DNA of 64,000 nucleotides from Chthoniobacteraceae bacterium (GTDB lineage: Bacteria > Verrucomicrobiota > Verrucomicrobiia > Chthoniobacterales > Chthoniobacteraceae), in the NCBI GenBank assembly GCA_028293625.1, contig JAQGOL010000033.1, positions 62,001-126,000 on the forward strand, written 5' to 3'. Below are positions 21,609 through 48,000 of this stretch, piece by piece. The notes under the pieces were generated by a model. It made no database searches, had not been told where the DNA came from, and saw nothing but the letters and a program-made list of their open reading frames with translations. Made by a program: the position numbers and the translations under genes. Each line of letters opens with the position of its first letter. Positions within the stretch are counted from its first letter, which is position 1.

Positions 21609-21611
21609 AGT

Positions 21612-27726: not shown

Positions 27727-27734
27727 CCTATCTT

Positions 27735-27902: not shown

Positions 27903-28518
27903 TCCAACTGAGCCTGTCATCACGCGTCGTGAGCCGGATCCTGTAAAACCAGTATCGGAGGAGGACTCGCTGCGCCCGCATATCTACGACGGTATTCAGG
28001 AATACGACAAGCGGCTGCCGCGCTGGTGGCTTTATACCCTGTATGGCACCATTGTGTTTGCGGGGCTCTATTGGGCTTACTATCAGGCCTATCAATTCGG
28101 CGTCGCACCGGAGCACGCGCTCAAGATGGAGATGGCTGCCAATGCCGACACGGCAGCTCGCAAGTCGGGCAACCTGGATGACGATCTGCTTTGGAAAATG
28201 AGCGTCGATGCCAAGGTTCTCGCCGCGGGCAAGGTGACCTTCGAGACGACGTGCGCCTCGTGCCATAAGCCGGATCTTACAGGCATGATCGGACCCAATC
28301 TTGTCGATCGGGAATGGATTCATGGAGGCTATCCGATGGATGCGATGAAGACGATTACCGAAGGCGTGCTGGCCAAGGGAATGCCGGCATGGGGGCCGCT
28401 TCTTGGAAAGCAAAAGATCAGCGAAGTAGCCGCCTATATTTTCAGCCATCATAAAACCGGTGAACAGATTGTCCCCGTGGCCGGTTGGACGATGCCCGGC
28501 GCGGTGCCTGCCCCATGA
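27895..28518 (+). CDS. ccoP: cbb3 oxidase subunit III (CcoP), single-heme form
   Basis: Protein of 207 residues. The N-terminus has the CcoP features HIYDGIQEYDKRLPRWW followed by one membrane helix (about 44-66). The periplasmic part has a single cytochrome c domain with CASCH at 120-124 and GMPAWG as the probable Met ligand. Usual CcoP proteins have about 300 residues and two hemes; one domain is absent here. It overlaps the CcoQ-like gene by 8 bases, and its TGA overlaps the ccoG ATG. It should pass electrons from soluble or membrane cytochromes to CcoO. Confidence 0.92.
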   Translation: MLNPTEPVITRREPDPVKPVSEEDSLRPHIYDGIQEYDKRLPRWWLYTLYGTIVFAGLYWAYYQAYQFGVAPEHALKMEMAANADTAARKSGNLDDDLLWKMSVDAKVLAAGKVTFETTCASCHKPDLTGMIGPNLVDREWIHGGYPMDAMKTITEGVLAKGMPAWGPLLGKQKISEVAAYIFSHHKTGEQIVPVAGWTMPGAVPAP

Positions 28519-29930
28519 ACGCACAACGCAACAACCAGGACGCGTTGAGATCGCCGCGGGTGCCTGCTCCCACGCTTGAATCTGTCAGTTCGCTCAATCG
28601 AGATGGCTCGCACCGCTTTATTCATACGGCAACCGCGCGCGGCTTCTTCACTCGCTGGCGCCTGGCCTTTGCCATGGCGCTGACAATCGTCTATGTCGCG
28701 TTGCCATGGATCCGCATCAACGGCAATCCGGCTATCTTTCTGGATGTTGCCAACCGGCAGTTTCATTACTTTGGACTGACATTCCTTGGCCAGGATTTGT
28801 GGATGATCTTTTTTTTGATCAGCGGACTTGGTTTCTGCCTTTTTTATGTGACCGCACTGCTTGGCCGTGTCTGGTGTGGCTGGGCGTGTCCGCAGACGGT
28901 GTTCCTCGACTTCGCCCGCCGCATCGAACGCTGGTTTGAAGGAGACGCCGCCGCGCGGCGCCGGCTCGACTCTGAGGCCGCAACGTTTCAAAAGATCGTC
29001 CGTCGCGGTGGCAAGCATCTGGTATTCGCGCTTTTCGCGCTGCTCCTGGCCCACGTTCTTCTATCCTATTTCATTTCGCTGCCAGCTCTTTACTCGATGA
29101 TGCGCCAGTCGCCCGGCTCAAACTGGGGCGCATTCGTTTTTGTTTTTCTGTGTGCCGGCGCGCTCTGGTTTGATCTCGCGTGGTTTCGCGAGCAATTCTG
29201 CATCATTCTTTGTCCTTATGGCCGGTTGCAATCGGCGCTTATAGACGCGGATTCGCTTGTGGTTGGATATGATGCTCAGCGTGGCGAGCCGCGCGCAAAA
29301 AAAGGAACGGCGGGCGCGGGTGACTGTGTGGATTGCCATCGCTGTGTGCAGGTCTGCCCGACCGGTATCGACATCCGGCAAGGCTTGCAGATGGAGTGCA
29401 TCGGTTGCACCGCCTGCATTGATGCCTGCGATACTGTCATGGCGAAGATCTCACGGCCGGCCGGGCTTATCCGTTACGATTCCCAGCGTGGTTTTGCCGG
29501 AAAACCGACGCGCTGGTTGCGGCCCCGCATCCTGCTCTATACCGGACTGATGCTCCTGGGCGCGTGCGCGCTGACGGCTGCAACCTCCACGCTCAAGTCC
29601 GCCACCGTGAGCCTCACGCGCATTACCGGCATACCATATGTGGTGGAGAATGGTGTGGTGCGGAACCAGTTTCTACTTCGACTTCTTAACAAGCGGAACG
29701 CGCCCGTGACGTTTTACCTGGAAATCACCGGGGCACCCGGCAATCTGCATTGGACCGGAACCGAAGGCGGCATCCGTGTCGGTCCGCTAGGCGAGGAAAT
29801 CCGTCCGGTTGTTGTGACCCTCCCGCGAGCCAATATGACGGCCGATTTGCCGCTGAGTTTTCGGATAGTTTCCGACAATGGAACGACGCTGGAAAAAACA
29901 GTGACATTTTTAGGCCCTGTTATTCCATGA
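28515..29930 (+). CDS. ccoG: CcoG/RdxA-type ferredoxin, cbb3 oxidase accessory protein
   Basis: Protein of 471 residues. The ATG at 28515 overlaps the ccoP stop as ATGA and is preferred over a TTG 30 bases upstream. About five membrane helices surround GRVWCGWACPQTVFLDFARR. Two 4Fe-4S motifs start near residue 271: CVDCHRCVQVCP and CIGCTACIDACD. A periplasmic immunoglobulin-like C-terminal domain (about 355-471) completes the CcoG architecture. CcoG is a copper reductase that helps copper delivery to cbb3 oxidase. Its stop overlaps the next small gene as ATGA. Confidence 0.95.
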   Translation: MNAQRNNQDALRSPRVPAPTLESVSSLNRDGSHRFIHTATARGFFTRWRLAFAMALTIVYVALPWIRINGNPAIFLDVANRQFHYFGLTFLGQDLWMIFFLISGLGFCLFYVTALLGRVWCGWACPQTVFLDFARRIERWFEGDAAARRRLDSEAATFQKIVRRGGKHLVFALFALLLAHVLLSYFISLPALYSMMRQSPGSNWGAFVFVFLCAGALWFDLAWFREQFCIILCPYGRLQSALIDADSLVVGYDAQRGEPRAKKGTAGAGDCVDCHRCVQVCPTGIDIRQGLQMECIGCTACIDACDTVMAKISRPAGLIRYDSQRGFAGKPTRWLRPRILLYTGLMLLGACALTAATSTLKSATVSLTRITGIPYVVENGVVRNQFLLRLLNKRNAPVTFYLEITGAPGNLHWTGTEGGIRVGPLGEEIRPVVVTLPRANMTADLPLSFRIVSDNGTTLEKTVTFLGPVIP

Positions 29931-30052
29931 AAGAGCGTCCGTGGATTTGGCTGATCATCGCGAACGTCTTCATCTTCGCGGCCGTTGCCACGCTGGCGGT
30001 TGTGGCAATGCGCCATGCGCCACAGGAAATCCCGGTCAGCCATGGACCTTAG
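29927..30052 (+). CDS. 41-residue single-span membrane peptide in the FixH position
   Basis: The frame encodes a basic N-terminus (MKERPW), one hydrophobic helix (IWLIIANVFIFAAVATLAVV) and a short tail ending PVSHGP. It starts in the ATGA overlap with ccoG and overlaps the next gene by 11 bases, so its reading frame is locked into the operon. FixH/CcoH, normally about 150-170 residues with one N-terminal helix, occurs at this point in other operons. This peptide may be a trimmed CcoH that keeps only the membrane anchor. Sequence alone cannot confirm this. Confidence 0.6.
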   Translation: MKERPWIWLIIANVFIFAAVATLAVVAMRHAPQEIPVSHGP

Positions 30053-30650
30053 CCTCGCCACGCCGATGGCCGCGTTCATCACGGGTCTGGTGACAAGCGT
30101 GCATTGCAGTGCGATGTGCGGGCCGATCGTCTGTGCGTTGCGCGCCAACCCGCTTGAGTATCATGCCTCGCGGTTTGTCTCCTATACAGCGGCTGGGGCG
30201 CTGTGCGGCGCGGCCGGACAAACGGCCGCCGCTTTTCTTCAGGGCAGCGCTGCCCGGATCGTGCCATGGGCATTCGTCATCGTGCTGATCCTGATGGGAT
30301 TCGGTCTTGAGAAACGTTTGCCACAGCCGCGTTTTGTTACTTCACTACTGCTCCGGGTGCGATTTAACCGTTCGCTTGGCTGGCTTACTCCGCTTTTCCC
30401 ATGCGGCCCGCTTTGGTTGATGTTCGGCGCGGCGGTTCTAACCGGTTCCTGGCTGAGTGGCGCGATCCACATGGCTTCCTTTGCCTTGGGCACGATCCCG
30501 CTGCCGCTCTTTATCCAGGCAAATACCGCGCGGCTTCAGCGGAAAGTTTCCCCGCCTGCCCTGCACCGGATACAGCAGGTTCTCGCCTTTGTTTCAGCGG
30601 GACTTCTGGTCTGGCGCAACCTTCTTCCTCTCCATGCAAGCTGTCACTGA
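30042..30650 (+). CDS. UreH-like / SafE-family membrane protein of cbb3 operons
   Basis: Protein of 202 residues with about six membrane helices. The N-terminal signature GLVTSVHCSAMCGPIVCAL is that of the 'urease accessory protein UreH-like transmembrane' (DsbD_2-like) family, and a second conserved stretch reads GWLTPLFPCGPLWLMFGA. Paired cysteines in CSAMC and PCG may bind copper or take part in thiol exchange. Members commonly sit between ccoG/ccoH and ccoI. The ATG at 30042 lies inside the preceding gene's end; the gene overlaps ccoI by 17 bases. A copper-delivery role is inferred from context. Confidence 0.8.
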   Translation: MDLSLATPMAAFITGLVTSVHCSAMCGPIVCALRANPLEYHASRFVSYTAAGALCGAAGQTAAAFLQGSAARIVPWAFVIVLILMGFGLEKRLPQPRFVTSLLLRVRFNRSLGWLTPLFPCGPLWLMFGAAVLTGSWLSGAIHMASFALGTIPLPLFIQANTARLQRKVSPPALHRIQQVLAFVSAGLLVWRNLLPLHASCH

Positions 30651-32943
30651 ACGCGCGCTTTGCATTCATTGCGGCACGCCGTTTAAGCCCTCCATTCATC
30701 GCCCGGATTTTTGCTGCGCCGGATGCCAGTTTGTCCATGACCTGATCGCCAAAAACGGTTTTGGCCAATTTTACGATCTTCGGGAAGAGGCGCAGCCCGT
30801 GAAATCGCTTGTATTCCAAAAGCGCGATTATACCTGGCTCGAAGAAGCGGTGCGCGGCACGGGCGAAGTAACAACACTCACACTCGATGCGCAGGGTCTT
30901 TCGTGCATTGGCTGCGCCTGGTTGATCGAGAAACTCTTCATGCGTCATCCCGGTGCGCTCAGCATTCGTGTTGATTCCTCCTTGGGCCGGCTTGAACTGC
31001 ATTGGAAATCAGGCGTGTTCAAGCCCGTGGTTTTCGCCCGTGAACTTCAATCCTTTGGGTACGCTGTCGGATTGCCAGGCAAGACCGCATCTCCTGCAAG
31101 CCGCACCTTGATTCCACGCATCGGCCTTTGTGCGGCGTTTGCCTTGAACGCGATGCTTTTTACTTTGCCAGGCTATCTTGGCATGGGCGCGGAGTTCCAG
31201 TTCGCGCTTCTGTTTCAACGGCTGACGCTGATCTTCGGGACACTGAGTTTTGTTGTTGGCGGAAGCTATTTCTGCATGCGGTCGTGGCAGAGCCTGCGGC
31301 GGCGCGTGCTGCATATTGATCTGCCTATTTCAATGGGTCTTATCGCGGCTTACTCCGGCTCCCTTTATGCCTGGATCTGTGGCGCGAAGGGGTTTGTCTA
31401 CTTCGATTTTGTCGCGACATTTACCCTCCTGATGCTGGTCGGCCGTTGGCTCCAGCAGAAGATGATCGAGCGCAATCGCAACCAGCTTCTTTCCGCCCAA
31501 TCGGAACCGCCGCCGGTGCGCGATGCCGCCACCGGAGAAAAGCTTCCAGTTGCCGATATCCGCACGGATGCGGTCTATCTGGTTGATCCGGGTTATATCG
31601 TGCCCGTAAGCTCGCGGTTGTGTTCGATGGCGGCAACATTGGGGTTGGAATGGATCAGCGGCGAGAGTGATGCATGCATTGCGCGCCGCGGCCGGATGAT
31701 CCCGGCCGGGGCGGTTAACTGTGGCCAGGCGTCCATCGAATTGCATGCGCTTGAGCCGTGGAACGATTCTTTATTAGCCAAGCTCCTGCGCATTGCTCCG
31801 GGAACCGCTCCGCGCGATCTTCAGCTGGAGCGCTTTATTCGAGGATACATCGTCACGGTGCTTTTCATTGCCGTGACAGGGTTTGCCGGCTGGTGGATAT
31901 GGAACGGTGCGTTGCTGCCTGCCCTCCAGGTTTTTATTTCCGTTCTTGTAGTCTCCTGCCCGTGCGCTTCGGGAGTCGCTTTGCCGCTTGCAAGCGACCT
32001 GGCGGCGTCGCGTCTGCGGAAGCTTGGTGTTTTTATCCGCAACTCGGAGCTATGGGCGCGCCTTGAAAGTGTTCGCACTGTCATCTTTGACAAGACAGGC
32101 ACGCTGACTCTGGAAACCATCTCGCTTCGAAATCCCGAGGTTCTCCACGATCTTCAAGAAGACGAACGCGCGGTGCTTCTCTCTATCGTCCATGAGAGCC
32201 TGCATCCGGTCAGTGGTTGTCTGCGCGAACAATTGCTCGCCGACAGGGTCCCATTGCTTTTTTCCGCCCTTCCAAACGAGGTAATCGGTTTCGGGCTTGA
32301 ATTGCAGCACGCCGGTTCGCTATGGCGGCTTGGCCGGCCCGAATGGACCAACTCGGCGGGTGAAGGTGACTGCATTTTTACACGCGATCGCAAAACCATT
32401 GCCGCCTTCCGTTTCGGCGAGGAGGTGCGCTCGGATGCCATTGAAGAAATTGCCGCGCTTCAGGAAAGCGGTTGCTGTGTTGTGATCCTCAGTGGCGATC
32501 GCCGCGAGAAAGTCGAAGCGATGGCTGATCGCCTGCGCATTCCCCGCAAGCAATGCCACGCGCAAATGTCGCCCCAGGAGAAGGGCGAATGGGTGCAACA
32601 ATTCGACGCCCACGACACCTTATACATCGGCGACGGCGCAAATGACTCGCTCGCTTTCGATGCCGCCTGGTGCAGCGGCACGCCCGCCGTGGATCGCGGG
32701 TTGCTTGAGCAAAAAGCCGATTTTTATTTCCTCGGCCGCGGCCTGGGCGGTGTCCGTGCGTTGCTTCGCGCAGCCGGCAACCGCCGCCGCACCGTGCGCG
32801 CCGTGATTGTATTTGCGATTGCGTATAACGTGGTGGCAGTGACGCTCTGCCTGATGGGAAAGATGAACCCGCTTCTTGCCGCCATTCTGATGCCCGCCAG
32901 CTCGCTGATTTCCCTGGGGATTGTCTTTCTTCGGGCTCGATAA
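30634..32943 (+). CDS. ccoI: CcoI/FixI-type copper-exporting P-type ATPase
   Basis: Protein of 769 residues from the ATG at 30634. A Cys-rich N-terminus (CIHCGTPF, CCAGCQF) of the FixI type is followed by an HMA domain with CIGCAWLIEKLF. Eight membrane helices are expected. The transmembrane copper motif is CPC at 442-444, the phosphorylation site DKTGTLT starts at Asp486, the HP locus reads SLHPVSG and the hinge GDGANDSLAF. The actuator loop reads SGESDAC instead of the usual TGESxPV; the key Gly-Glu is kept. FixI-type pumps load copper into cbb3 oxidase from the periplasm. This is the last gene of the operon. Confidence 0.93.
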   Translation: MQAVTERALCIHCGTPFKPSIHRPDFCCAGCQFVHDLIAKNGFGQFYDLREEAQPVKSLVFQKRDYTWLEEAVRGTGEVTTLTLDAQGLSCIGCAWLIEKLFMRHPGALSIRVDSSLGRLELHWKSGVFKPVVFARELQSFGYAVGLPGKTASPASRTLIPRIGLCAAFALNAMLFTLPGYLGMGAEFQFALLFQRLTLIFGTLSFVVGGSYFCMRSWQSLRRRVLHIDLPISMGLIAAYSGSLYAWICGAKGFVYFDFVATFTLLMLVGRWLQQKMIERNRNQLLSAQSEPPPVRDAATGEKLPVADIRTDAVYLVDPGYIVPVSSRLCSMAATLGLEWISGESDACIARRGRMIPAGAVNCGQASIELHALEPWNDSLLAKLLRIAPGTAPRDLQLERFIRGYIVTVLFIAVTGFAGWWIWNGALLPALQVFISVLVVSCPCASGVALPLASDLAASRLRKLGVFIRNSELWARLESVRTVIFDKTGTLTLETISLRNPEVLHDLQEDERAVLLSIVHESLHPVSGCLREQLLADRVPLLFSALPNEVIGFGLELQHAGSLWRLGRPEWTNSAGEGDCIFTRDRKTIAAFRFGEEVRSDAIEEIAALQESGCCVVILSGDRREKVEAMADRLRIPRKQCHAQMSPQEKGEWVQQFDAHDTLYIGDGANDSLAFDAAWCSGTPAVDRGLLEQKADFYFLGRGLGGVRALLRAAGNRRRTVRAVIVFAIAYNVVAVTLCLMGKMNPLLAAILMPASSLISLGIVFLRAR

Positions 32944-33950: not shown

Positions 33951-36900
33951 ATGTTCCTCCTACGCACGCTTTGTATTGTTTTCACCTTGATCGGCGGCGC
34001 CCTGGCTCAAGAACCCGAGCGAAGTTTTCGCGCGGGCGCGGCCGCGGTCGAGATTACGCCCGAGAAATGGCCGGTGCTCGTCAATGCGATGTTCACCGAG
34101 CGCACAGCCGACAAGGTGACCGATCCGCTTTTTGCCAAGGCGCTCGTGCTCGATGATGGCGTCTCGCGCGTTGCGTTGTGCGTGGTCGATACGTGCATGC
34201 TGCCGCGCGATTTGATCGACCGCGCCAAGGAACTCGCGACGGCGGCAAGCGGCATTCCAGTGGAAAAGATGCTCGTCTCGGCTACGCACACGCATTCAGC
34301 GCCGTCGGCGATGGGCTGTCTTGGGAGCCGGGTCGATCCGGAATACGCGGCAGCACTTCCTCCAAAAATCGCGGCGGCGATTATCAAAGCGGCAGGAAAA
34401 CTCGCGCCCGCGCGAGTAGGATGGGCCGGCGTGGACGACTGGGAGCATACTTTTAACCGCCGCTGGATTCGGCGTCCGGACAAGATGTTGAGCGATCCGT
34501 TCGGGGTGAAAAATGTGCGGGCGAATATGCATCCGGGATATAAGAGCCCGGATGCGGTCGGGCCATCGGGGCCGGTCGACCCGGAGCTTTCGGTGCTCGC
34601 GGTGGAAACGCCCGACGGCAAACCGATGGCGGTGCTGGCCAATTATTCGCAACACTATTACGGGTCACCGCTGGTTTCTTCGGATTATTACGGGCGGTTC
34701 GCGCGGCATCTGGCAAAGGCGCTCGGCGCCGACGACACGTTCGTTGGGATCATGTCGCAAGGGACAAGCGGCGATCAGATGTGGATGGATTACGGCGCGC
34801 CGGCCCGGGAGATCGGATACGATCTTTATGCGCAACAAGTGGCGGAGCGGGCCGTGGAAGCCTATCGCAATATCGCGTGGAAAACCGCGGTTCCCCTGCG
34901 CATGGCGGAACGCAAATTGACTCTCAACTTCCGGGTGCCGGACGACGCGCGGCTTTCCTGGGCCAATGAACAGGTCACAAAACTCGGCGCGCGTCTGCCT
35001 CAGACGCAGCCTGAGATTTACGCCAGGGAAGCCATTTATCTTCATGAACGTCCCCAGGCGGAATTAAAACTTCAGGTGCTGCGGATTGGCGACCTTGGCA
35101 TCGTGGCGATTCCCAATGAGGTCTATGGGATCACCGGGTTGAAATTGAAGGCGCAAAGTCCTTTTAAGAGAGGCTTTAATATTGAACTGGCCAATGGGGC
35201 CGAAGGATATATTCCGCCTCCGGAACAACACGCACTGGGCGGTTACACAACGTGGCCGGCGCGGACGGCCGGGTTGGAAGTGCAGGCCGAGCCGCGCATT
35301 GTCGAGGCGCTGCTTGGGTTGCTCGAAGAGGTGGCCGAAAAGCCGCGGCGTCCGTTGATGGAAGAGCCGGGGATCTATACGCAGGCTGTGTCAGATTCCA
35401 AGCCGGCGGCTTATTGGCGCCTTAATGAAATGGTGATCCCAACCGCGCACGACGCCACCGGTCACAAGCACGACGCCACATTTGAGGAAGGAATCGCACT
35501 CGGCCTGCCAGGCGCGGGAAGCGGCAACGGCATCTCGCCTGATCCGGCGCTCAAAGCGTCGAATTTCTCGGGAACCCAGATCAATCGGGCTCCGCATTTT
35601 GCCGGAGGCCGGATGCGCGCCAATCTGCCGCTTGGCGACAATTACAGTGCCGAATTTTGGTTCTGGAACGGGCTTCCTCACGACGCCAGGCCTGTGACCG
35701 CTTATCTCTTTTCACGCGGCACCGATGCGGACAAGAAAGCGGCCGGCGAGCATTTGGGTATTGGCGGCAGCTATCGCGGCGGCCTTGAGGGGCGGCTGAT
35801 TCTTTTCAATGGAAATGAGCGCGATGAACTCCTCGCGGGAAATACGGTGATGGCGCTGCGGGCGTGGCATCATGTTGTTTTGGTGCGCGAAGGAAAAAAG
35901 GTGCGGGTGCATCTCGATGGACGCGCCGAGCCCGAGATCACCGGCGAATTGGAAAAGACGTTGCCGCGTGGCGAGCACTCCATTTTCCTCGGCGGCCGCA
36001 GTGATGGGCTTTTTGGTTTGGAAGGACGGCTGGATGAAGTGGCGCTTTATGATCGCGCGTTGTCGCCAAAAGAAATCGCCGCGCACTATGAGGCGTCCGC
36101 GTTGATCCCGCCGGTTGCCGCGGCTCCAGCCCGGGGTGCGGTGGAATCGGCGCCTCTTTCGCCGCTTGATTCATTGAAAAAAATCCATGTGCGCAACGGT
36201 TACGGCGTGGAGCTGGTCGCAAGTGAACCGCTCACGATGGATCCGGTGGCCATTGACTGGGATGGCACGGGCCGGATGTGGGTGGTTGAGATGGCTGATT
36301 ATCCGCTTGGGATGGATGGCAAAGGGAAGTCGGGCGGCCGGGTGCGTCTGCTTGAGGATACGGATGGCGACGGACGCTACGATAAATCGACGCTCTTTGC
36401 CGAAGGACTCAATTTCCCCACTGGTCTGATCGCATGGCGCGACGGGGTGATTGTCAGCGCCGCACCCGACATCCTTTTTCTTCGCGACACGGATGGCGAC
36501 GGAAAGGCCGATAAGCGCGAGGTGCTCGTGAGCGGGCTGACTCAAGGCAATCAACAGCTGCGCGCAAACGGCCTGCGATGGGGCCTCGACAACTGGGTTT
36601 ATTGCGCGGCAGGCGGGCATCATGGCGATTATGGGATCGGCACCAAGCTGCGCACCCGCGCGGGGGAGGTGCTGGTCGGTTCGCGCGATTTTCGGTTTCG
36701 TCCCGATACAGGGGAGATTGAACCGCAAAGCGGGCCGTCGCAGTTCGGGCGGAACCGGGACGATTGGGGGCATTGGTTTGGAACGCAAAACTCGCGTCCG
36801 CTCTGGCATTACGTCCTCGGGGATCAATACCTGCGGAGGAACCCGCATATCGCCGCGCCGGCACCGACCCATCAGGTTGTGGTGCCACTCAATCCGAAGG

Positions 36901-39900
36901 TCTGGCCGGCAAGCCGCCAGGAGAAACGGTTCCACAGTTTTGATCAGGGAGGCCATTTCACCTCGGCCTGCAGCGGGATGATCTATCGCGACGACCTCCT
37001 TTTTCCAAAGGGCGAAATGCACGCGTTCACCTGCGAGCCATTCCACAATCTCGTGCAGCACAATATTCTCGCTGACGATGGCCCGAGTTTTTCCGCCCAT
37101 CGGGCTCCGGAAGAGGACGGCACCGAGTTTTTTGCCAGTGAAGATCGCTGGTGCCGGCCGGTCATGACACGCACCGGACCGGACGGCGCGCTCTGGGTTG
37201 TGGACATGTATCGCTACATGATCGAGCACCCGGATTGGCTCCCACCGGAAGGCAAGGCGGAGCTGTTGCCGCATTACCGGCTCGGGGAGGATAAAGGGCG
37301 CATCTACCGGGTATTTCCTTCGGGTGTCGCGACGCGAAAACCATTGCGTCTTGATTCCATGGACATCGGCGCACTGGTGGAGGCGCTTGATTCATCAAAT
37401 GAATGGCAGCGGGACAAGGCGCACCAGCTTCTCCTATGGCGCGCGGACAAGGCGTCCATTGAGCCGCTCACAAAGTTGGCGCGTGAAAGTCTTAACCCGC
37501 TTGCACGACTCCATGCGCTTTGTGTTCTTGACGGGCTCGGCGCGCTTTCCTCAGAGAGCGTCGGACGCGCTCTGGCTGACACGCATCCTGGTGTCCGTGA
37601 AAACGCGGTGCGCCTGGCTGAAAAGCTCGCCTCCCCGGAAGTTATTACCACGGCGGCGAAGCTGGCGGACGATCCCGATGCCAAGGTGCGGCTGCAACTC
37701 GCGTTCACGTTGGGCGAATGGAACGACCCGGCCGCGGGCGCCGCATTGGGCCGGCTGGCGGTGGCCGATTATTCAGATCCTTTTATTTTTGCGGCCGTGA
37801 TGAGCTCGGCTGTGCCGCATTGTCGCGCGTTGGCCGAGGCGGCGGTCAAAGATGGCGGTCCGGCGCTGGCCGCGTTGTCCGAGCCGCTTGCCAACCTGGC
37901 ACTTGCCTTGAATGAACGCGATGCGCTTGCGGCGCTGCTCGCACCGGCACTGACGCCGCATGATTCCAGCTTCACCGTGGCGCAATTGGTGGAGTTCACG
38001 CGGTTTCTTGATGCAGTTGGCGCGCGCAAAACCTCGCTGGAAACGCTCGCCGTGGGAACCGATTTGCTCGCCGCGCGGATTGGCAAGGTCAAGCCGCTGA
38101 CAGACTGGGCGCGCATGGCCGCCGGGCAGGCCAATACGCCCATTGAATTGCGAGCGGCCGCTGCCGACATGCTCACGCGGCTTCCATCGAGCCAGGAAGA
38201 AGCACTCGCGTTATTGAAACAATGGCTGCTTCCGGATCAACCCGGCAACTTGCAGCAAGCGGCCGTCAAATCGCTTTCCTCAACAGTCACCGATTCGGTT
38301 CCCGCCACATTGCTTGCCGGCTGGGAATCGTATGCGCCGGAAACCCGGGCCATCGCACTCGACGCCTTGCTCACCCGGGGGCCGTGGACGATTGCCCTGC
38401 TTGAATACTCGTCGCAGGGCCATCCGCTGGCGCTGGATGCCACCCGGCGCGCGCAATTGCTTAAGCATCAATCCGCGCGCGTCCGCGAATTGGCGGAAAA
38501 GCTTCTGAGTCCGACTGCGACCCGGGTAAAGGTGATCGAGCAATTCCAGCCTGCCCTTAAATTGACCGGTGAGCGGGCGCGAGGAGAGGCCGTCTTTTCA
38601 CGGCTTTGCATCGGATGCCACAAACTGGGCGAGCTTGGGCGCGACATTGGCCCGAACCTGCGCTCGGTGGCGGAGCATCCGCCTGAAAAGCTGCTCACCA
38701 ATATTCTTGATCCGAATGCGGATGTGCAGCCCGGCTTTTATGCGTATCAATGCCGGCTTGTTGATGGGACCGAGCTCTACGGCCTGATCGCCGCGGAGAC
38801 CGGCAACAGCATCACGATCAAGCTCGCCGACGGCACCACGCGCGCGGTATTGCGCAAGGAAATCGCGGTGCTCAAAAGCGCCAACGTTTCCCTCATGCCG
38901 GAAGGGCTCGAAGCCGGGATGACCGTTCAGGAAATGGCCGATTTGATCGAGTTCCTGCGCTCAGGGAGCGGCGCCGCAAAAGCGGTTTCCGCGGGGAAAA
39001 ATGACCTGCGCGTGGGAGCCTCGTCCGTGAATTTAAAAGCCGATGACACGATGCCGATCGCCGGTTCGCTTGAGGCGCATTTTACCAAGGAGCAGGAAGG
39101 CCAGTTGCGCGCCACCGCTCTGGTGGTGGAGAAATCGGGGGAGGCGAGAATTGCCATTGTCGCGTGTGACGTGCTTTGGGTGACGCGCGCCATTGTCGAT
39201 GCCGCCCTTGTTGAGATTCAAAAGACCACCGGCATTGCGCCCTCGCATGTGCTGGTCAACGCGACGCACACCCATCACGCACCCGGGACCGCGCCGGCGC
39301 ACGCGTTTGGCTGGTCGGAAAAGTTCGCGGACGAAGTGCGCCGCGGGATCGTGCAAGCCGTGCAGGAAGCCAATGCGCGGCTCGCCGATGCAGCGTTTTT
39401 TTACCATCTCGGAGAAGAACGCACGGTGGGCGGGAACAGCCGGTTCCTGCTCGGCGACGGCGCGATCTCGTGGCTTAACCCGATTGGCGAGGCGGGAGCC
39501 AAAGTGCAGCCGACCGGGCCGTTTGATCCGCAGCTGCCGGTGCTCGATTTCCGGGGAAACGACGGGCGGACACTCGCGCTGCTTTTTAATCATTCCACGC
39601 ACACCATCGGCACCCGTTCAGGACGCGATGCGCGCTCGCCGGGTTTTTATGGGCTGGCCGCGCAGGAGCTCGAAAGTGAACTGGGCGGTGTGATCGGATT
39701 TCTGGAAGGCGCATCCGGTTCGACGCACAACGTCCGCAACGTGCCGGTGCCCGTGGCCATTGAGCGCATGAAAGAAGCCGTGCAATCGGCGCGCTCGCAG
39801 GCATTGCCGCATCCGGTGACCCATATCGCCTCACTGAAACGTCCATTCACTTTCCGGGTCAGATCATTTGACGAGGCGATTGAGGAGGCAAAGGTGGCGC

Positions 39901-40286
39901 GCTATTCCATGGCTTACGCTTCCCAGGCAGCGACACGGATTCGTGAAATTTTCGCGGATCAACGCCGCGAACTCGCTCCGCAGCAGGGGCAGGAACGGAA
40001 AACCTGGTTGCAAACGCTCCTCATTGGTGATGTGGCCATTGTCGGCGTGCCGGCCGAATATTTCACCGGACTCGGCCTTGAGATTAAACGGCGCTCCCCG
40101 TTTAAAAACACTTTCATCGCGGAATTGGCCAACGACTGGATTGGCTATCTGCCGGATTCAACCGCGCATCGGCTTGGCGGGTATCAAACCTGGACCGGGC
40201 TGCACAGTTACGCTGAGCCCGGCACCGGTGAACGAATCGCGGATGAAGCGGTGGCAATGCTCAACGCGATGGCCGGTTTGAAGTGA
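33951..40286 (+). CDS. Giant exported fusion: ceramidase-like / LamG / dehydrogenase / HEAT / cytochrome c / ceramidase-like
   Basis: Protein of 2111 residues with a signal peptide (1-19). Residues about 22-465 resemble neutral ceramidase, with zinc motif ATHTHSAP at 111-118 and NYSQHYYG near 225. A LamG/concanavalin-like domain follows (about 475-720, AAYWRLNEM and LDEVALYDRALSPKE). Residues about 740-1135 are a PVC dehydrogenase propeller (GYGVELVASEPLTMDPVAID), then HEAT repeats (1150-1530), a heme domain with CIGCH at 1553-1557, and a second ceramidase-like domain (about 1690-2111) with NATHTHHAP at 1770-1778 and NHSTHTIG. Both copies keep the His-Thr-His pair. The substrate could be a lipid amide or another ester/amide; oxidation coupled to hydrolysis is inferred. 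Its stop codon lies in a palindrome shared with the convergent gene. Confidence 0.85.
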   Translation: MFLLRTLCIVFTLIGGALAQEPERSFRAGAAAVEITPEKWPVLVNAMFTERTADKVTDPLFAKALVLDDGVSRVALCVVDTCMLPRDLIDRAKELATAASGIPVEKMLVSATHTHSAPSAMGCLGSRVDPEYAAALPPKIAAAIIKAAGKLAPARVGWAGVDDWEHTFNRRWIRRPDKMLSDPFGVKNVRANMHPGYKSPDAVGPSGPVDPELSVLAVETPDGKPMAVLANYSQHYYGSPLVSSDYYGRFARHLAKALGADDTFVGIMSQGTSGDQMWMDYGAPAREIGYDLYAQQVAERAVEAYRNIAWKTAVPLRMAERKLTLNFRVPDDARLSWANEQVTKLGARLPQTQPEIYAREAIYLHERPQAELKLQVLRIGDLGIVAIPNEVYGITGLKLKAQSPFKRGFNIELANGAEGYIPPPEQHALGGYTTWPARTAGLEVQAEPRIVEALLGLLEEVAEKPRRPLMEEPGIYTQAVSDSKPAAYWRLNEMVIPTAHDATGHKHDATFEEGIALGLPGAGSGNGISPDPALKASNFSGTQINRAPHFAGGRMRANLPLGDNYSAEFWFWNGLPHDARPVTAYLFSRGTDADKKAAGEHLGIGGSYRGGLEGRLILFNGNERDELLAGNTVMALRAWHHVVLVREGKKVRVHLDGRAEPEITGELEKTLPRGEHSIFLGGRSDGLFGLEGRLDEVALYDRALSPKEIAAHYEASALIPPVAAAPARGAVESAPLSPLDSLKKIHVRNGYGVELVASEPLTMDPVAIDWDGTGRMWVVEMADYPLGMDGKGKSGGRVRLLEDTDGDGRYDKSTLFAEGLNFPTGLIAWRDGVIVSAAPDILFLRDTDGDGKADKREVLVSGLTQGNQQLRANGLRWGLDNWVYCAAGGHHGDYGIGTKLRTRAGEVLVGSRDFRFRPDTGEIEPQSGPSQFGRNRDDWGHWFGTQNSRPLWHYVLGDQYLRRNPHIAAPAPTHQVVVPLNPKVWPASRQEKRFHSFDQGGHFTSACSGMIYRDDLLFPKGEMHAFTCEPFHNLVQHNILADDGPSFSAHRAPEEDGTEFFASEDRWCRPVMTRTGPDGALWVVDMYRYMIEHPDWLPPEGKAELLPHYRLGEDKGRIYRVFPSGVATRKPLRLDSMDIGALVEALDSSNEWQRDKAHQLLLWRADKASIEPLTKLARESLNPLARLHALCVLDGLGALSSESVGRALADTHPGVRENAVRLAEKLASPEVITTAAKLADDPDAKVRLQLAFTLGEWNDPAAGAALGRLAVADYSDPFIFAAVMSSAVPHCRALAEAAVKDGGPALAALSEPLANLALALNERDALAALLAPALTPHDSSFTVAQLVEFTRFLDAVGARKTSLETLAVGTDLLAARIGKVKPLTDWARMAAGQANTPIELRAAAADMLTRLPSSQEEALALLKQWLLPDQPGNLQQAAVKSLSSTVTDSVPATLLAGWESYAPETRAIALDALLTRGPWTIALLEYSSQGHPLALDATRRAQLLKHQSARVRELAEKLLSPTATRVKVIEQFQPALKLTGERARGEAVFSRLCIGCHKLGELGRDIGPNLRSVAEHPPEKLLTNILDPNADVQPGFYAYQCRLVDGTELYGLIAAETGNSITIKLADGTTRAVLRKEIAVLKSANVSLMPEGLEAGMTVQEMADLIEFLRSGSGAAKAVSAGKNDLRVGASSVNLKADDTMPIAGSLEAHFTKEQEGQLRATALVVEKSGEARIAIVACDVLWVTRAIVDAALVEIQKTTGIAPSHVLVNATHTHHAPGTAPAHAFGWSEKFADEVRRGIVQAVQEANARLADAAFFYHLGEERTVGGNSRFLLGDGAISWLNPIGEAGAKVQPTGPFDPQLPVLDFRGNDGRTLALLFNHSTHTIGTRSGRDARSPGFYGLAAQELESELGGVIGFLEGASGSTHNVRNVPVPVAIERMKEAVQSARSQALPHPVTHIASLKRPFTFRVRSFDEAIEEAKVARYSMAYASQAATRIREIFADQRRELAPQQGQERKTWLQTLLIGDVAIVGVPAEYFTGLGLEIKRRSPFKNTFIAELANDWIGYLPDSTAHRLGGYQTWTGLHSYAEPGTGERIADEAVAMLNAMAGLK

Positions 40287-40302
40287 GTTTGCGCAAACTC
40301 AC
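40283..40302. terminator. Perfect 20-bp palindrome spanning both stop codons of convergent genes
   Basis: GTGAGTTTGC and GCAAACTCAC are exact reverse complements without a spacer. The TGA of the plus-strand fusion gene (40284-40286) and that of the minus-strand hydrolase (40299-40301) occupy symmetric places in the arms. It could form a hairpin in either transcript and act as a bidirectional terminator, but there is no T-tract. Confidence 0.5.
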
Positions 40303-42479
40303 CGTGCAAGGAGCCACTTCACGGCATCTTTGCTCGAGCCTTTTTTGCCGTCAAAAGTGAGCTTCGAGGAGGCGCCGGTTTTTTGATAAATCGACGAGGC
40401 GAGCTGGACGCTTGCTTTGGATTCACCGGCCAGCCAGGTGGCCCGGGGCGCGCTCAAGGCAAGCAAGCCGGGGAGGTCGCCGTATTTTGCGCCGCCGGGA
40501 AGAAAGTCTGGGCTGCGGAGATCAAGCACGCTGGCGAATCGAAAGCCGCCGGTGCCGATGGCAGCGCGACGGATGGCATCGCCCGATTGGGAACGGGCGG
40601 CGGCCAGGATCGGGCCGGTCCGATCGAGGGCGACGGCATCGAGCTGCTTTACTTTTCCCGGCTCCGACCGGATCAGCTGGATCATTGTCAGGATGTCGTG
40701 CACCCGGTGCGCGAATACGGCGGGATTGTAGCCAAACGTGTAGGCGGCCGATTCCCGGGGATTCCTGACTGTCGGGGTGGCTTCGAATTTGGCATCGGTG
40801 AGGAATTCGCCCTGATAGAGCAGGTCAACGCCAACCACTGCGGAGCCGGCGGCGACGATGCCCGCGATCTCGGGCGTCGGTTCGCCTTGTTCGTTAAACA
40901 GACCCGCCTTGCCTTGCTCGCTAAGCCAAAGAACCACTTTGCCGGTCCACTTTTTTGGGTAAATCCAGAGGACGGGCAATTGTTCGCCGTGCGTCTTGTT
41001 TGAAACAAGGCCGCTCATCTGAAGCCAAGCCCCTTTGTCGACCTTTTCAGAGAGCTTCCATTCCACCTCTCCAGCCTCTTCCAGATTGCGTCCGAGGACG
41101 ACTCCCACTGCCGGCGCGACGGCTTTTTTAAAGCGCTCAAGGGTTGCCTGTTCAGGGGCGAGCTGTTTCGCGGCATCGGTCCAAAACCAATGGAGCAGGG
41201 AACGCTCAAATTCGGGATCGGCAACGGCGGGCTTTGGATGGAGATCATCCCAGACGGACATTTCGGCTTCGGTGAGCCGCTGGAAATCGGGCTCCTCGAT
41301 CGGCTCCGCGTGGCCGAGTTTGAAATGAGAGTTGACCCACGAAAGCATGGCGGCGCGGGTCACGTAGTTGAAGTTGTGCTTGAAATTTTCGCCTCGGTTT
41401 AACATGACCTCGTCCGGGGCTCCAAGCAGTGTGTAGAGCGCTTTGAGTTCCGGAAACCCTTTGGTGGAGAGCTCTTTTGTCCAGTCATCGGCACTGTTCA
41501 TCCCCTGCGGTTTGGGGGCGAATAACGCGGCGAACTCGACGTTGCCGGTGCCGATTCGAAGCAGGCTGGCATTTTCGCAAGTGCATCCGCCTTGCATCGA
41601 GGTGCTGACCATGACGGCTGGGAAAGAAAGTCTGATTCGCGGATCAATCGCGCTCAGCAGCATGGTTTGGGTCCCCCCGCCGCTTTCCCCGGTGACAGCA
41701 ATGCGTTCGGGATCGATCTCAGGCAGGCTCAGCAGGAAATCGAGGGCGCGGATCGCGTTCCACGTTTGCAGCCCCATGACGCTTTGGAGATGCGCTTCGG
41801 CTTGCGGACTATAAAGGCCCCAGTTTTCCGCCGTATTCATCTCGGGGCGTTGTTTGGCAAACTTGTGGATGATCTCCGCCGGGATTTGAATGCTGTCGGC
41901 ATTGCCAAGCATGTCCCAGTGGAACACCACGCAGCCAAGACGGGCCAGCATCACGCATCGCGCTTGAAGCGAACTGCGCCCGCCTTCTTCAAAACGCTCG
42001 GCCCCATCGGCAATATCGCGTTTGACTCCTTCAATTCCCGTATCAAGGAACCGCCCCGCCGGCCAGTGCCCATGCGGACTCAACACGCCGGGCACTTTGC
42101 CGGTGATCGTTTTTGGACGGTAAAGATTTCCCGTTACGAAAAAACCAGGCGCGCTCTCGAAGTAGACCTTTTCCACCGTGTATTCGCCGCGATCGATCTT
42201 CCCATGAATGACGGCTTTAAGCGGCGTTTTGGTCGGCAACGGCCAGAGGCCTTCGGCGACCAGGATCTGGCGGCGGACGCGTTCAGCGCGTTTTTCCCAA
42301 GCCTCGCGCGAGGCGGGGGGAGAAAAAGGAAAATAGCCGTCGAGATCCTTGAGCGGTTCAAGGCGGAGATCCTTGGGCAGCTCGCCTGCTGGCAATACCC
42401 GCGGCGCCTGGGCGCCCGCGCTGCAAAGAAAGAGAGTGACAAGGGCGAACGCGGAACGAGCCAGGACCGGGGAGATCAT
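40299..42479 (-). CDS. Exported alpha/beta hydrolase, acetyl xylan esterase-like
   Basis: Protein of 726 residues with a signal peptide (1-24). An N-terminal region (about 30-110) precedes an alpha/beta hydrolase core of the acetyl xylan esterase/dienelactone hydrolase class. It shows SPHGHWPAGR, the nucleophile elbow VTGESGGGTQT (about residue 265) and CTCENASLLRIGTGN. A probable catalytic His is in ENFKHNFNYVTR (about 365). The C-terminal 270 residues form a second, hydrolase-like domain without a clear nucleophile motif. Many verrucomicrobial and planctomycete genomes have such tandem esterases beside PSD1/DUF1501 genes. It is likely to deacetylate polysaccharides in the periplasm or outside, but the substrate is unknown. 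It is the last gene of the minus-strand group. Confidence 0.8.
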   Translation of the reverse strand: MISPVLARSAFALVTLFLCSAGAQAPRVLPAGELPKDLRLEPLKDLDGYFPFSPPASREAWEKRAERVRRQILVAEGLWPLPTKTPLKAVIHGKIDRGEYTVEKVYFESAPGFFVTGNLYRPKTITGKVPGVLSPHGHWPAGRFLDTGIEGVKRDIADGAERFEEGGRSSLQARCVMLARLGCVVFHWDMLGNADSIQIPAEIIHKFAKQRPEMNTAENWGLYSPQAEAHLQSVMGLQTWNAIRALDFLLSLPEIDPERIAVTGESGGGTQTMLLSAIDPRIRLSFPAVMVSTSMQGGCTCENASLLRIGTGNVEFAALFAPKPQGMNSADDWTKELSTKGFPELKALYTLLGAPDEVMLNRGENFKHNFNYVTRAAMLSWVNSHFKLGHAEPIEEPDFQRLTEAEMSVWDDLHPKPAVADPEFERSLLHWFWTDAAKQLAPEQATLERFKKAVAPAVGVVLGRNLEEAGEVEWKLSEKVDKGAWLQMSGLVSNKTHGEQLPVLWIYPKKWTGKVVLWLSEQGKAGLFNEQGEPTPEIAGIVAAGSAVVGVDLLYQGEFLTDAKFEATPTVRNPRESAAYTFGYNPAVFAHRVHDILTMIQLIRSEPGKVKQLDAVALDRTGPILAAARSQSGDAIRRAAIGTGGFRFASVLDLRSPDFLPGGAKYGDLPGLLALSAPRATWLAGESKASVQLASSIYQKTGASSKLTFDGKKGSSKDAVKWLLAR

Positions 42480-43820: not shown

Positions 43821-45272
43821 CTATGCAATGATCTGGCTGATTGCTTCGCCGTGATCAATTTCCAGGCGTTTGCGCCCGGGCACTTCAAGCCGGTACGAGT
43901 CGAGGCCCATGAGCTGCATGACCGTGGCGTGGATATCGGTGACGTAATGCCGGTTTTCCACCGCGTGAAAGCCGAGTTCATCGGTGGCTCCATGCGCCAT
44001 GCCGCCTTTGATCCCGCCACCGGCCAGCCACGCGGAAAAGCCCTGCGGATGATGGTCGCGTCCGGTCCCTTCCGCGCCCGGCGTGCGTCCAAACTCGGTG
44101 CCGAAAACCACCAGCGTATCGTTGAGAAGCCCGCGTTGTTTGAGATCTTTCAACAGGCCCGCAATCGGTTGATCAACCTGCTTTGAGAGCTTCTCGTGGT
44201 TGGCCTTGATGTCGGAATGCGCGTCCCATTCGCCGCCGCCGCCGCCGCCATGAAAGATCTGGATAAAGCGGACTCCGCGTTCGACGAGCTTGCGCGCCAC
44301 CAGGCAGCGTTCGCCGAAGGATTTGCTCTCGGGCTTGTCCATTCCATAGAGCCCTTTGGTCGCTTCGGTTTCTGTTTCCAGCTGCATGACTTCAGGGATG
44401 GAAGTCTGCATCTGGAAGGCCAGCTCGTACGATTTAATCCGGGCGCGCAGTTCCTTGTCATCGGGATAATCAATGCCGGACAAGGTATTTAATTTCCCAA
44501 GGAGGCTCAGGTTTTGCAGCTGTTCTTCGGAAGTGATCTCGGAGCTCGCGGGCCGGATAAATGGAAGCGGCTTTTGCGCGTCGTTCCCGAGCCGCACCCC
44601 GGCGTATTCCGGGCCGAGATAAGCGGCGCCGTGCGTGAATGCGCCGCCGCAACAATCGCCAGTAGGCACGCCGAGCACCACATATTCGGGCAGGTTCTGG
44701 TTGAGCGTGCCGAGCCCGTAAGAAACCCATGCGCCGAGGGTCGGATGATTGAGTTCACGCGGATGCCGTCCGGTTTGCCAGGTAAGCTGGGCGCCGTGAT
44801 CGTTGTGGATGGTCCAGAGGGACCGCACCACGGCGAGATCATCGGCGCAGGAACCGATGTTTTGAAACCAATCGCCAACCACCAGGCCGCTTTCCCCGTA
44901 AGGCTTGAAGCCGGTCTGCAACGGCATGAGCACCTTGCGATTTCCGTGGCTCGGATTGCCGTCGACGATGTTCTTTTCCGAAGTGGCCAGCACCCCTTTA
45001 TACGGCGTTTCTTCAATCGATTTCCCCGCATACTGGTTAAGCGCGGGCTTGATATCAAAGCTCTCCAGGTGGCTGACGCCGCCGCAGAGAAAAATCCAGA
45101 TCACCGACTTTGCTTTGGGCGGAAAATGCGGGCGTCCATCCGGTTGTTCGGCTTTAGCGGTCTGGTCGCGGAATAACATGGAACCGAGCACCAGGCCGGT
45201 AAAGCCCATGCCGGTATCGGCCAGAAAAGAACGCCGGGTCACACCGGCGCAGGAATGCGAGTTGGAAGGCAT
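43821..45272 (-). CDS. DUF1501 exported protein (Tat signal)
   Basis: Protein of 483 residues beginning 4 bases after the PSD1 stop, so part of the same operon. The N-terminus has a twin-arginine motif (VTRRSFLADTGMGF). DUF1501 features include CGGVSHLESFDIKPALN, LWTIHNDHGAQLTWQTGRHP, VVFGTEFGRTPGAEG, GRDHHPQGFSAWLAGG and DIHATVMQLMGLDSYRL. It is a paralogue of the protein at 21612, with the same partner type, but clearly diverged. A CCGG stretch (GDCCGGAFTHGAAYLGPEY) is absent from the other copy. A metal-dependent hydrolase fold is expected; substrate unknown. Confidence 0.93.
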   Translation of the reverse strand: MPSNSHSCAGVTRRSFLADTGMGFTGLVLGSMLFRDQTAKAEQPDGRPHFPPKAKSVIWIFLCGGVSHLESFDIKPALNQYAGKSIEETPYKGVLATSEKNIVDGNPSHGNRKVLMPLQTGFKPYGESGLVVGDWFQNIGSCADDLAVVRSLWTIHNDHGAQLTWQTGRHPRELNHPTLGAWVSYGLGTLNQNLPEYVVLGVPTGDCCGGAFTHGAAYLGPEYAGVRLGNDAQKPLPFIRPASSEITSEEQLQNLSLLGKLNTLSGIDYPDDKELRARIKSYELAFQMQTSIPEVMQLETETEATKGLYGMDKPESKSFGERCLVARKLVERGVRFIQIFHGGGGGGEWDAHSDIKANHEKLSKQVDQPIAGLLKDLKQRGLLNDTLVVFGTEFGRTPGAEGTGRDHHPQGFSAWLAGGGIKGGMAHGATDELGFHAVENRHYVTDIHATVMQLMGLDSYRLEVPGRKRLEIDHGEAISQIIA

Positions 45273-45276
45273 GGTG

Positions 45277-48000
45277 TCAGCGGATGGTGATGAAGTCGTT
45301 GTGATTAAAGAGCACCAGAATCAGGTTTTCGCGCAATCGCATCGGGTCGGGCGCCTGGGCCGGATCGTTGGAAGGCGCATTGAGAAATGCAAGGCAGGCG
45401 CCGAGCTCATCGTCGGATGGAATCCGGGAAAGTACCCGTTCGAATGCCTGCCGGACAAAGGCCTCGGCATTGGCGCCGGCCTGTTCGGAAAGCCGTTTTG
45501 CCACCACTTGGGATTGGGCCAGTGTCAGCTCGCTATTGGCCAGTGCGAGCGATTGCTGCGGCATGACCGACGGATGCCGCTGATAGCATTCGTTGACGCT
45601 TGGACCATCAAAGATCTTTAGAAACTCCACCTCCTTTTCCGAAGCACTCCGCAGGTAAAGGCTGCGCCGTTTGGATGTCAGCCCCTGCATTTGGTCAATG
45701 TCAGCCCCGCCGCGCGTCAGGTCGAGTGAGCCGGCCACGTAAAGCAGGTTGTCGCGCACCAGTTCAGCTTCCATGCGGCGTGTTGGCATGCGCCATAAAA
45801 AAAGGTTGTCGGTATCGAGCTGCAAGTCCGCCGCATCGGGCGTCGATGTCATCCGGTAAGTGTTGCTGGTCACAAGCATCCGGTGCATCGGTTTCATTTT
45901 CCAGCCGTTGGCCATGAACTCGGCGGCCAGCCAGTCGAGCAGCGCCGGATGCGAGGCGCGCGCCCCGTTGAACCCGAAGTTCTCAGGCGTGGCGACAATC
46001 CCGCGGCCAAAGTGACGCAGCCAAAGATGATTCATTGCAACGCGCGCCGTGAGCGGATTGTCGTTTTGAACCAGCCATTTTGCGAACGCAAGCCGCCGGC
46101 CTGTGCTGACCGCCGGGTAATCGTCCTTGGGCCGTGGCTTGAATCCGGTGGTGGCATCGCCGTTTGCCTGCGCACCGGCCTTGGCGAATGCCTGCTCCGC
46201 CGCGCCGATCTTTCCCTCCGCAGTCTTTAAATCGTTTGCCGCCTTCTCGCGTTTGGCCTGATAAGGATCAGCGATCTCTGCCTCAGTCGGCGGAGGGAGA
46301 TCGTCCAGGATTTGCCGGGCATCGGCTTGCGCGGTTTTTAATTTGTACAGGCCGAGTTCGGTCTCAAACAGAGCCGCCTCGTTCTGAGCGCGCATCGTTT
46401 CCTCGGCGGCTTCTTTCCAATCGTCGCCGCTTTTATTTCCCGCCGCCTCGATTTGTTCGGCGCGAATTTCGGCCAGAAGCGCCGTGTGCCGGGCCTCGGC
46501 AATGGCGAATTCGAATTTGCGCTCGGTGATCTGATTCGCGGTCTTGGCCTTAGTAAAGGCGTCCCTGGCATTGAGAAGCAGTTGTTCGCTTGCAAGCAGC
46601 GTATCCCTTATGACGAAGTCGCGTTTATCGGGCGAAGCGGCATCGGCGGGAAGAGCGACCCTGGTGATGTCGAGCGCCGGTTTTAATCGGTCCCCGCATA
46701 AAGCGCGTGGAACGCCGGGCTGCATCACCCGATCTTTGTCCGGTCTTCGTTCGTCGCCGCGGATGAAGAAATAAGTGGGTGCGTCCTTGTCGATGTCGTA
46801 AACGCGCGGCACCCCGTCCTTTTCGCGGTCGAGAACTCCCGGCACACGATCGGTGCGAACCTGGTGCGGCTCGAAGATTGCGCGGACCTGATAATACTCG
46901 GCCTGCGAGATCGGGTCGGTGCGATGGTCGTGGCACTTGGCGCACCCAAGCGTGATGCCAAGGAATGCTTGCGAGGTATGTTTAACCGTGTCTTCGAGCC
47001 ACTGCTCGCGACTGAGCATTTTGTAATTTCGCACCAGAAATCCGGTTGCCCGCAACGTCTCCGGGTCGTTCGGCGCAAGTTCATCGGCGGCAAGCATTTC
47101 AACGACCATCTGGTCGTAGCCATGGTCGGCATTGAGCGATTCGACAATCCAGTCGCGCCACCGCCAGATATGACGCTGGCTGTCGCGCACCTGTTTTCCA
47201 TCGGTCCAGCCGGCCCAATCGCTGTACCGCCAGATATCCATCCAGTGCCGGCCCCATCGTTCGCCGTATTGCGGGGATTCAAGCAAGCGATCGACGACTT
47301 TTTCATACGCATCGGGCGATAGATCCGATGCAAAGGCGCGCTGTTCTTCCGGGGTTGGCGAAAGGCCGATCAGATCGAGGTAAACGCGCCGCAGCAGGAT
47401 CGATTTTGGCGCCTCGGGCCGGGGCTTAAGGCCATGCTCCTCCTGTGCGGCCGCGATGAATGCATCAATCGGCGTGCGCACCCAGCCGGGATTCGAAATT
47501 GCTGGAAGCGGAGGGCGCTGCACGCGTTCAAAAGGCTGCCATCGGTAAGAAGCGATGAACCTGGCGAACTCGGTCTGTTTGGCTTGCGCCCCGGCGATTT
47601 CCTCGGCGGCGGGCGTTTGCTTTGAGTCACCGGGATTTTTCCCAAGCAACAGTTCGATCTCGTTGGCGACGCCATCGCCATCACTGTCTTCCTGTGCAAT
47701 CAGAGCGAGCCGGGTGGCGATGCCTTTGGGCTTGCCTGCTTTGTCCAATTCCTCCCCGAGAATCCGGAGCCGGTTGCCAAAGGCATTATGCGGAAAATCG
47801 TCGAGCGATTCGGGCTCTTTGATGTCACTCGGCAGATGGCAGGTCGTGCAACGGGCAAGGTTTTTTTCGAGAAACCGGTCGTAATGGCGTTCAAGCGCAG
47901 CCTTGTTTGAGGGAGTCGCAAGAAGCGGGGCGGCTCCGGCCAGCGCAAATGCCAAGCCCAGAAAGCGCCTGCTGATTCTCGGGGGAAGTCTCATTGTCAA
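45277..48000 (-). CDS. PSCyt2/PSD1 exported cytochrome c protein with EF-hand-like loop
   Basis: Protein of 907 residues with a signal peptide (1-28). An N-terminal cytochrome-like segment has CTTCH at 51-55 and is followed by a calcium-loop-like stretch (DSDGDGVANEIELLLG, about 108-123). PSCyt2 (DUF1549) covers about 170-390 with ERWGRHWMDIWRYSD and CAKCHDHRTDPI. A charged helical region with coiled-coil character (about 455-605) replaces the discoidin-like insertion of the paralogue at 18780. PSD1 (DUF1553) occupies about 630-900 with LTARVAMNHLWLRHFG and VMPQQSLALANSELT. It heads the minus-strand operon with DUF1501, and diverges from the DUF4838 gene across a 103-base gap. Confidence 0.92.
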   Translation of the reverse strand: MTMRLPPRISRRFLGLAFALAGAAPLLATPSNKAALERHYDRFLEKNLARCTTCHLPSDIKEPESLDDFPHNAFGNRLRILGEELDKAGKPKGIATRLALIAQEDSDGDGVANEIELLLGKNPGDSKQTPAAEEIAGAQAKQTEFARFIASYRWQPFERVQRPPLPAISNPGWVRTPIDAFIAAAQEEHGLKPRPEAPKSILLRRVYLDLIGLSPTPEEQRAFASDLSPDAYEKVVDRLLESPQYGERWGRHWMDIWRYSDWAGWTDGKQVRDSQRHIWRWRDWIVESLNADHGYDQMVVEMLAADELAPNDPETLRATGFLVRNYKMLSREQWLEDTVKHTSQAFLGITLGCAKCHDHRTDPISQAEYYQVRAIFEPHQVRTDRVPGVLDREKDGVPRVYDIDKDAPTYFFIRGDERRPDKDRVMQPGVPRALCGDRLKPALDITRVALPADAASPDKRDFVIRDTLLASEQLLLNARDAFTKAKTANQITERKFEFAIAEARHTALLAEIRAEQIEAAGNKSGDDWKEAAEETMRAQNEAALFETELGLYKLKTAQADARQILDDLPPPTEAEIADPYQAKREKAANDLKTAEGKIGAAEQAFAKAGAQANGDATTGFKPRPKDDYPAVSTGRRLAFAKWLVQNDNPLTARVAMNHLWLRHFGRGIVATPENFGFNGARASHPALLDWLAAEFMANGWKMKPMHRMLVTSNTYRMTSTPDAADLQLDTDNLFLWRMPTRRMEAELVRDNLLYVAGSLDLTRGGADIDQMQGLTSKRRSLYLRSASEKEVEFLKIFDGPSVNECYQRHPSVMPQQSLALANSELTLAQSQVVAKRLSEQAGANAEAFVRQAFERVLSRIPSDDELGACLAFLNAPSNDPAQAPDPMRLRENLILVLFNHNDFITIR

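Follow-up and report, generated by a model that had tools for sequence, protein, structure and literature searches.

A rare PVC cytochrome protein with a neutral-ceramidase-fold zinc domain at each end

What is the nature of a bacterial protein that carries a ceramidase-like domain at each end and a c-type cytochrome core in between, and is such a protein inherited or the product of an assembly join? The question is raised by a gene in the window, i.e., the whole stretch of 64,000 nucleotides of a Chthoniobacteraceae genome analysed here (contig JAQGOL010000033.1). The gene is a single uninterrupted frame of 2111 codons plus stop (33951-40286, + strand), which sits within a 140-kb contig and whose third-position G+C is high along the whole length, with no step. 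Pfam and NCBIfam scans confirmed the coordinates, the length and the domain order given by the original prediction, namely ceramidase-fold, LamG, DUF7133/TIGR02604, HEAT, c-type haem domain and ceramidase-fold.

All features of the gene lie on the + strand. By eye, residues 1-20 (MFLLRTLCIVFTLIGGALAQ; 33951-34010) resemble a Sec signal peptide, and the protein is probably secreted and periplasmic. The N-terminal neutral-ceramidase-fold domain, delimited by alignment, profile and AlphaFold2 model, spans residues 24-468 (34020-35354) and is followed by a LamG/concanavalin-like domain at residues 475-718 (35373-36104; PF13385, 51.5 bits), with the Pfam Laminin_G_3 match at residues 559-710. The propeller-type core matches both DUF7133 of Pfam (residues 737-1123; 36159-37319; 518 bits) and TIGR02604 of NCBIfam (residues 750-1124; 286 bits against a cut-off of 122.2). 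A HEAT-repeat region (residues about 1126-1500; 37326-38450; Pfam HEAT_2 match at residues 1207-1285) leads to the c-type haem domain (residues 1521-1675; 38511-38975), in which TIGR02603 of NCBIfam matches residues 1540-1671 with 125.8 bits against a cut-off of 68.15 and the haem motif CIGCH occupies residues 1553-1557 (38607-38621). The C-terminal neutral-ceramidase-fold domain, of the kind called C-type below, was delimited by sequence comparison (residues 1690-2111; 39018-40283). With TIGR02604 and TIGR02603 above their cut-offs in one chain and a CxxCH present, the protein is a PVC-type heme-binding CxxCH protein. Its core is complete and in the same order as in other members of that class, e.g., Lac161_ORF7, which by description consists of the three core domains only, whereas the window protein adds LamG and two ceramidase-fold domains.

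The core itself offers few clues to its chemistry. Besides their own family, DUF7133 members match only propeller-type families, and these weakly; none of 44 members matched PF07995 (GSDH), and the DUF7133 profile matched a single GSDH protein weakly, over 175 columns and with a probability of 63%. No solved relative of the core was found by sequence profile. The term dehydrogenase, which the original prediction applied to the core, remains an inherited label.

The two end domains are better defined. The Pfam family of the neutral ceramidases (Ceramidase_alk, PF04734) matches the C-terminal domain with 42.7 bits, over the cut-off of 32.1, and the N-terminal domain, when scanned alone, with 31.4 bits, just below it. 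Although the latter score falls short, the ceramidase fold of the N domain is settled by profile and fold comparison. A profile built from 58 aligned relatives (N-type, C-type and stand-alone, with the C domain of the window among the rows) retrieved only two solved neutral ceramidases, 2zws of P. aeruginosa (E 1.7e-26) and 4wgk of human (E 2.9e-18). The alignment-based AlphaFold2 model of the N domain (pLDDT 95.2) superposes on the P. aeruginosa neutral ceramidase 2zxc with a Z of 35.9 across 398 residues and on 4wgk with a Z of 33.8, in spite of only 16-17% identity to these enzymes, and Foldseek with VIA-align gave high scores to neutral ceramidases only (Z 35.9, 35.9 and 33.8; next 7.5). 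The structure prediction called for in the original prediction thus succeeded for the N domain; the C domain, folded from its single sequence, reached a pLDDT of 34.6. Its assignment to the same fold rests on sequence comparison, including a phmmer match to 2zws with an E of 4.3e-9.

Both ends retain the complete set of zinc ligands. The THTH motif occurs at residues 112-115 and 1772-1775, in agreement with the earlier claim of a zinc HTH at 113-115 and 1773-1775, and D80, H113, H115, H235, E390, Y420 and Y432 are invariant across the 58 rows; counted along the profile alignment, the invariant residues map onto H97, H99, H204, E411, Y448 and Y460 of 2zws. The zinc ligands, named after those established for 2zws and 4wgk, are by alignment H113, H235, E390 and Y420 in the N domain and H1773, H1884, E2036 and Y2066 in the C domain, with further active-site positions at H115, the R170 region and Y432 in the former and at H1775, R1831 and Y2078 in the latter. 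In human neutral ceramidase, according to a review, His196, Arg257, Tyr579 and Tyr591 are critical, and Ser354 stabilises the catalytic Arg257 (PMC6952831). By our own alignment reading of the human-to-window correspondence, this serine, which belongs to the GDVSPN motif, is replaced by M277 in the N domain and by H1926 in the C domain, where the NxGDVSPN region reads TSGDQMW and ASGSTHN, respectively. None of the 58 aligned sequences has a serine in that column; M, N, H, Y or other residues stand there instead. As judged from these alignments, both ends carry a neutral-ceramidase-fold zinc site in which the motif-serine position has changed. The end domains are also shorter than the solved ceramidase chains (about 420-450 aa against 630-690) and, unlike these, are embedded twice in a cytochrome protein.

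Is the fusion real? Relatives in which the pieces occur as separate adjoining genes would be compatible with a misassembly that joined two or three genes, but the distribution of the fused order leaves this explanation next to no probability. Each end was searched against 384 genomes of the class, at least 16 of which encode the order N-LamG-DUF7133-HEAT-cyt c in one frame, and one of which (G342) encodes the full two-ended order. A scan for the C domain in one genome per species (84,980 species) yielded three full-order proteins, L145 (clipped by a contig end), L146 and L148 (the same as G342), whose assemblies are independent of that of the window and come from another family. The C domains of these three proteins and of the window form a single clade in an 84-row tree, with support of 100/99. 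Moreover, the N-only fusion gene of L112 is followed, just past its stop and at the place expected, by a decayed C-domain remnant of 70 residues (L112:8264-8452, - strand), which corresponds to residues about 1693-1762 of the window protein at 54% identity, is interrupted by a stop and then ends. The fusion is no artefact: it is rare, and it has been inherited.

In the core tree, the four full-order proteins cluster with a trio of N-only proteins, L112 among them, that belong to the same family as the window's genome. The simplest history that these sequences suggest is that the C domain was gained once and later lost in a sister genus; since it was lost in members of that genus, the core can do without the C domain. 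A history with two independent gains was also considered and is unneeded, as the C tree unites all four fused copies, although the core tree taken alone would require two changes.

The two ends share 27% identity, against 52-71% between the C domain of the window and other C-type domains; most of the latter are encoded by stand-alone genes, and several of these products begin with a signal-like peptide. Internal duplication as the source of both ends is ruled out by these values. The two ends are, to judge by sequence, different subfamilies that were recruited separately. Across 80 C-type loci, DUF7133 is fused to the C-type domain in four; in another 17 it is encoded next door, before or after the C-type gene and on its strand, which makes 21 of 80 together. 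In 57 there is no DUF7133 or N-type gene nearby. DUF7133 proteins make up an estimated 0.6% or so of the genes in the window's genome, from which adjacency by chance is expected at about 1 in 80, a figure to be read with the relatedness of the loci in mind and with no formal test attached. Beyond DUF7133, no conserved operon general to C-type genes emerged. In two loci (L156 and L167) an N-LamG-DUF7133-cyt c gene is immediately preceded by a C gene, so that all domains of the window protein are present as two neighbours, and in G234 N-LamG and DUF7133-cyt c are separate, overlapping frames. From such existing neighbourhoods it follows that the fusion came after a neighbourhood that was already there. 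The window's genome holds DUF7133-cytochrome matches in 57 places. At another locus of this genome (L106; G000:C9:159452-165104), the gene of a second DUF7133-cyt c protein, a frame of 1361 aa with a core 50% identical, lies back to back with, and divergent from, a stand-alone ceramidase-fold gene.

The company kept by C-type genes is often related to sugars. Lacipirellula limnantheis I41, whose genome is complete, has a single 1779-aa frame (L149:5966-11302) that encodes, in this order, a 3-keto-disaccharide hydrolase (PF06439), a C-type ceramidase, DUF7133, HEAT and cyt c; as in the window, a C-type domain and the core share one chain, but the C-type domain stands ahead of the core with PF06439 in front, and there is no N-type domain. 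In L201 the C gene follows a gene for PF06439-DUF7133-HEAT-cyt c; in L100, genes for a xylose-isomerase-like TIM barrel protein, a PF06439 protein and GSDH lie beside the C gene. PF06439 linkage of C-type genes amounts to these three loci; within the window's genome, two proteins have PF06439 in the same frame as DUF7133. GFO/IDH/MocA oxidoreductases neighbour C-type genes in five loci, a GHL10 glycosidase-like gene in four poribacterial loci and a GH38 mannosidase in three loci outside the PVC group. In L215, L219 and L221, from Latescibacterota and archaeal MAGs, C-type genes lie near GH38 alpha-mannosidase-like genes, and there is no DUF7133 gene. No recurring lipid genes were seen beside C-type genes. 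As to the core, the purified verrucomicrobial DUF7133-HEAT-cytochrome protein Lac161_ORF7 is reported to hydrolyse lactose with a Km of 1.8 mM (PMC5342196), and in freshwater Verrucomicrobia the carbohydrate-binding modules attached to PSCyt-type cytochromes, Laminin_G_3 among them, have linked these cytochromes to the use of carbohydrates (PMC5615132). Both the gene context and an assayed relative of the core speak for sugars more than for ceramides.

Further genes of the window deserve mention. Directly upstream of the fusion gene and on the same strand, genes at 25351-32943 are consistent with a cbb3-type oxidase cluster, with a ccoP-like cytochrome, a CcoG-like ferredoxin, a DsbD_2 protein and a copper P-type ATPase; the DsbD_2 protein was recognised by domain scan and the other members were named from sequence reading. 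This cluster is a possible electron sink. The usual pairing of planctomycete-specific cytochrome genes, PSD1(/PSCyt2)-DUF1501, is present twice, at 20001-23081 and 43821-48000. Convergent with the fusion gene is a gene for a secreted alpha/beta hydrolase of 726 aa (40299-42479, - strand), with weak matches to glucuronyl esterases and acetyl-xylan esterases.

Given the sugar context, the PF06439 links, Lac161_ORF7 and the PSCyt link, the function that we favour, if tentatively and at somewhat less than even odds, is that of a periplasmic enzyme of glycans or glycoconjugates in which hydrolysis of an amide or ester by zinc is coupled to haem-linked oxidation. Two different zinc sites, one per end, would cleave an acyl-amide or ester bond of a glycan or glycoconjugate that LamG, the DUF7133 propeller or both hold in place; the sugar itself would be handled by the propeller module, with electrons passed on towards the respiratory chain by the attached c-type haem. 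The reading of the original prediction, amide or ester hydrolysis with oxidation of the product on one scaffold, is supported in part. We infer each of these steps, i.e., hydrolysis, a sugar substrate, oxidation and electron transfer, and the case for sugar is circumstantial. Against it count the description of Lac161_ORF7 without a ceramidase domain, the 57 of 80 C-type loci that lack a DUF7133 or N-type neighbour, the loss of the C domain and the restriction of PF06439 to three loci. That the end domains are zinc enzymes of oxidative glycan breakdown rather than lipid amidases, with the sugar oxidised by the propeller-cytochrome of the same chain, is in our estimate unlikely. It is unlikely, too, that the ceramidase-fold domains act on 3-keto glycosides which the propeller-cytochrome core produces, cleaving them in a zinc route parallel to PF06439. 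Such a role would fit the union of C-type, PF06439 and DUF7133-cytochrome in one polypeptide in L149, their proximity in L201, the adjoining C-type and PF06439 genes of L100 and the recurrence of GFO/IDH/MocA oxidoreductases; a second cleaver would, however, be redundant if PF06439 on the same chain already cleaves the keto sugar, and we know of no ceramidase-fold enzyme that cleaves 3-keto glycosides. In its favour also speak the activity of Lac161_ORF7 on lactose and the ties of PF06439 proteins to the hydrolysis of 3-keto-disaccharides and 3-ketoglycosides (PMC9007349).

Alternatively, the end domains could act as true ceramidases or as lipid N-acyl amidases and release a long-chain base for oxidation by the cytochrome core. 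The fold, the zinc site and the very name of the Pfam family agree with such an activity, but it is made improbable by the absence from 58 of 58 relatives of the serine that positions the catalytic Arg in the human enzyme, by sugar rather than lipid genes recurring beside C-type genes, and by the reduced length of the domains. It is more improbable still that the ends are catalytically dead and serve for substrate binding only: the loss of the GDVSPN serine and the dispensability of the C domain in sister genomes would be in keeping with this, but every zinc ligand, as well as the active-site His and Tyr, has been retained across a large divergence.

How unusual, then, is the protein? Each of its parts was already known. 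The N-type fusions of the class (ceramidase fold-LamG-DUF7133-HEAT-cyt c, about 1470-1980 aa) match it up to the haem domain, with cores up to 84% identical, but lack the C-terminal ceramidase-fold domain; this N-only form is common, yet undescribed as far as the literature searched shows. The two-ended form is rare, with four cases seen. No such layout was found in the literature searched on ceramidases in PVC bacteria, and the original prediction's statement that no described protein has two hydrolase domains around a PVC core holds for the literature searched. The architecture is rare but not isolated, given the widespread N-only form and the C-type/DUF7133 linkage in 21 of 80 loci. More than the doubled domain, it is the recurrent association of the ceramidase fold with DUF7133-cytochrome proteins and 3-keto-sugar enzymes that makes the protein of interest. 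DUF7133-cytochrome proteins, of which the window's genome has dozens of copies, lack a settled function; that they recur fused to, or beside, a zinc-hydrolase fold and 3-keto-disaccharide hydrolase domains provides a concrete substrate hypothesis. Annotations as ceramidase in PVC bacteria may mislead and, if true, a role in oxidative glycan breakdown would give a function to many unexplained PVC cytochromes.
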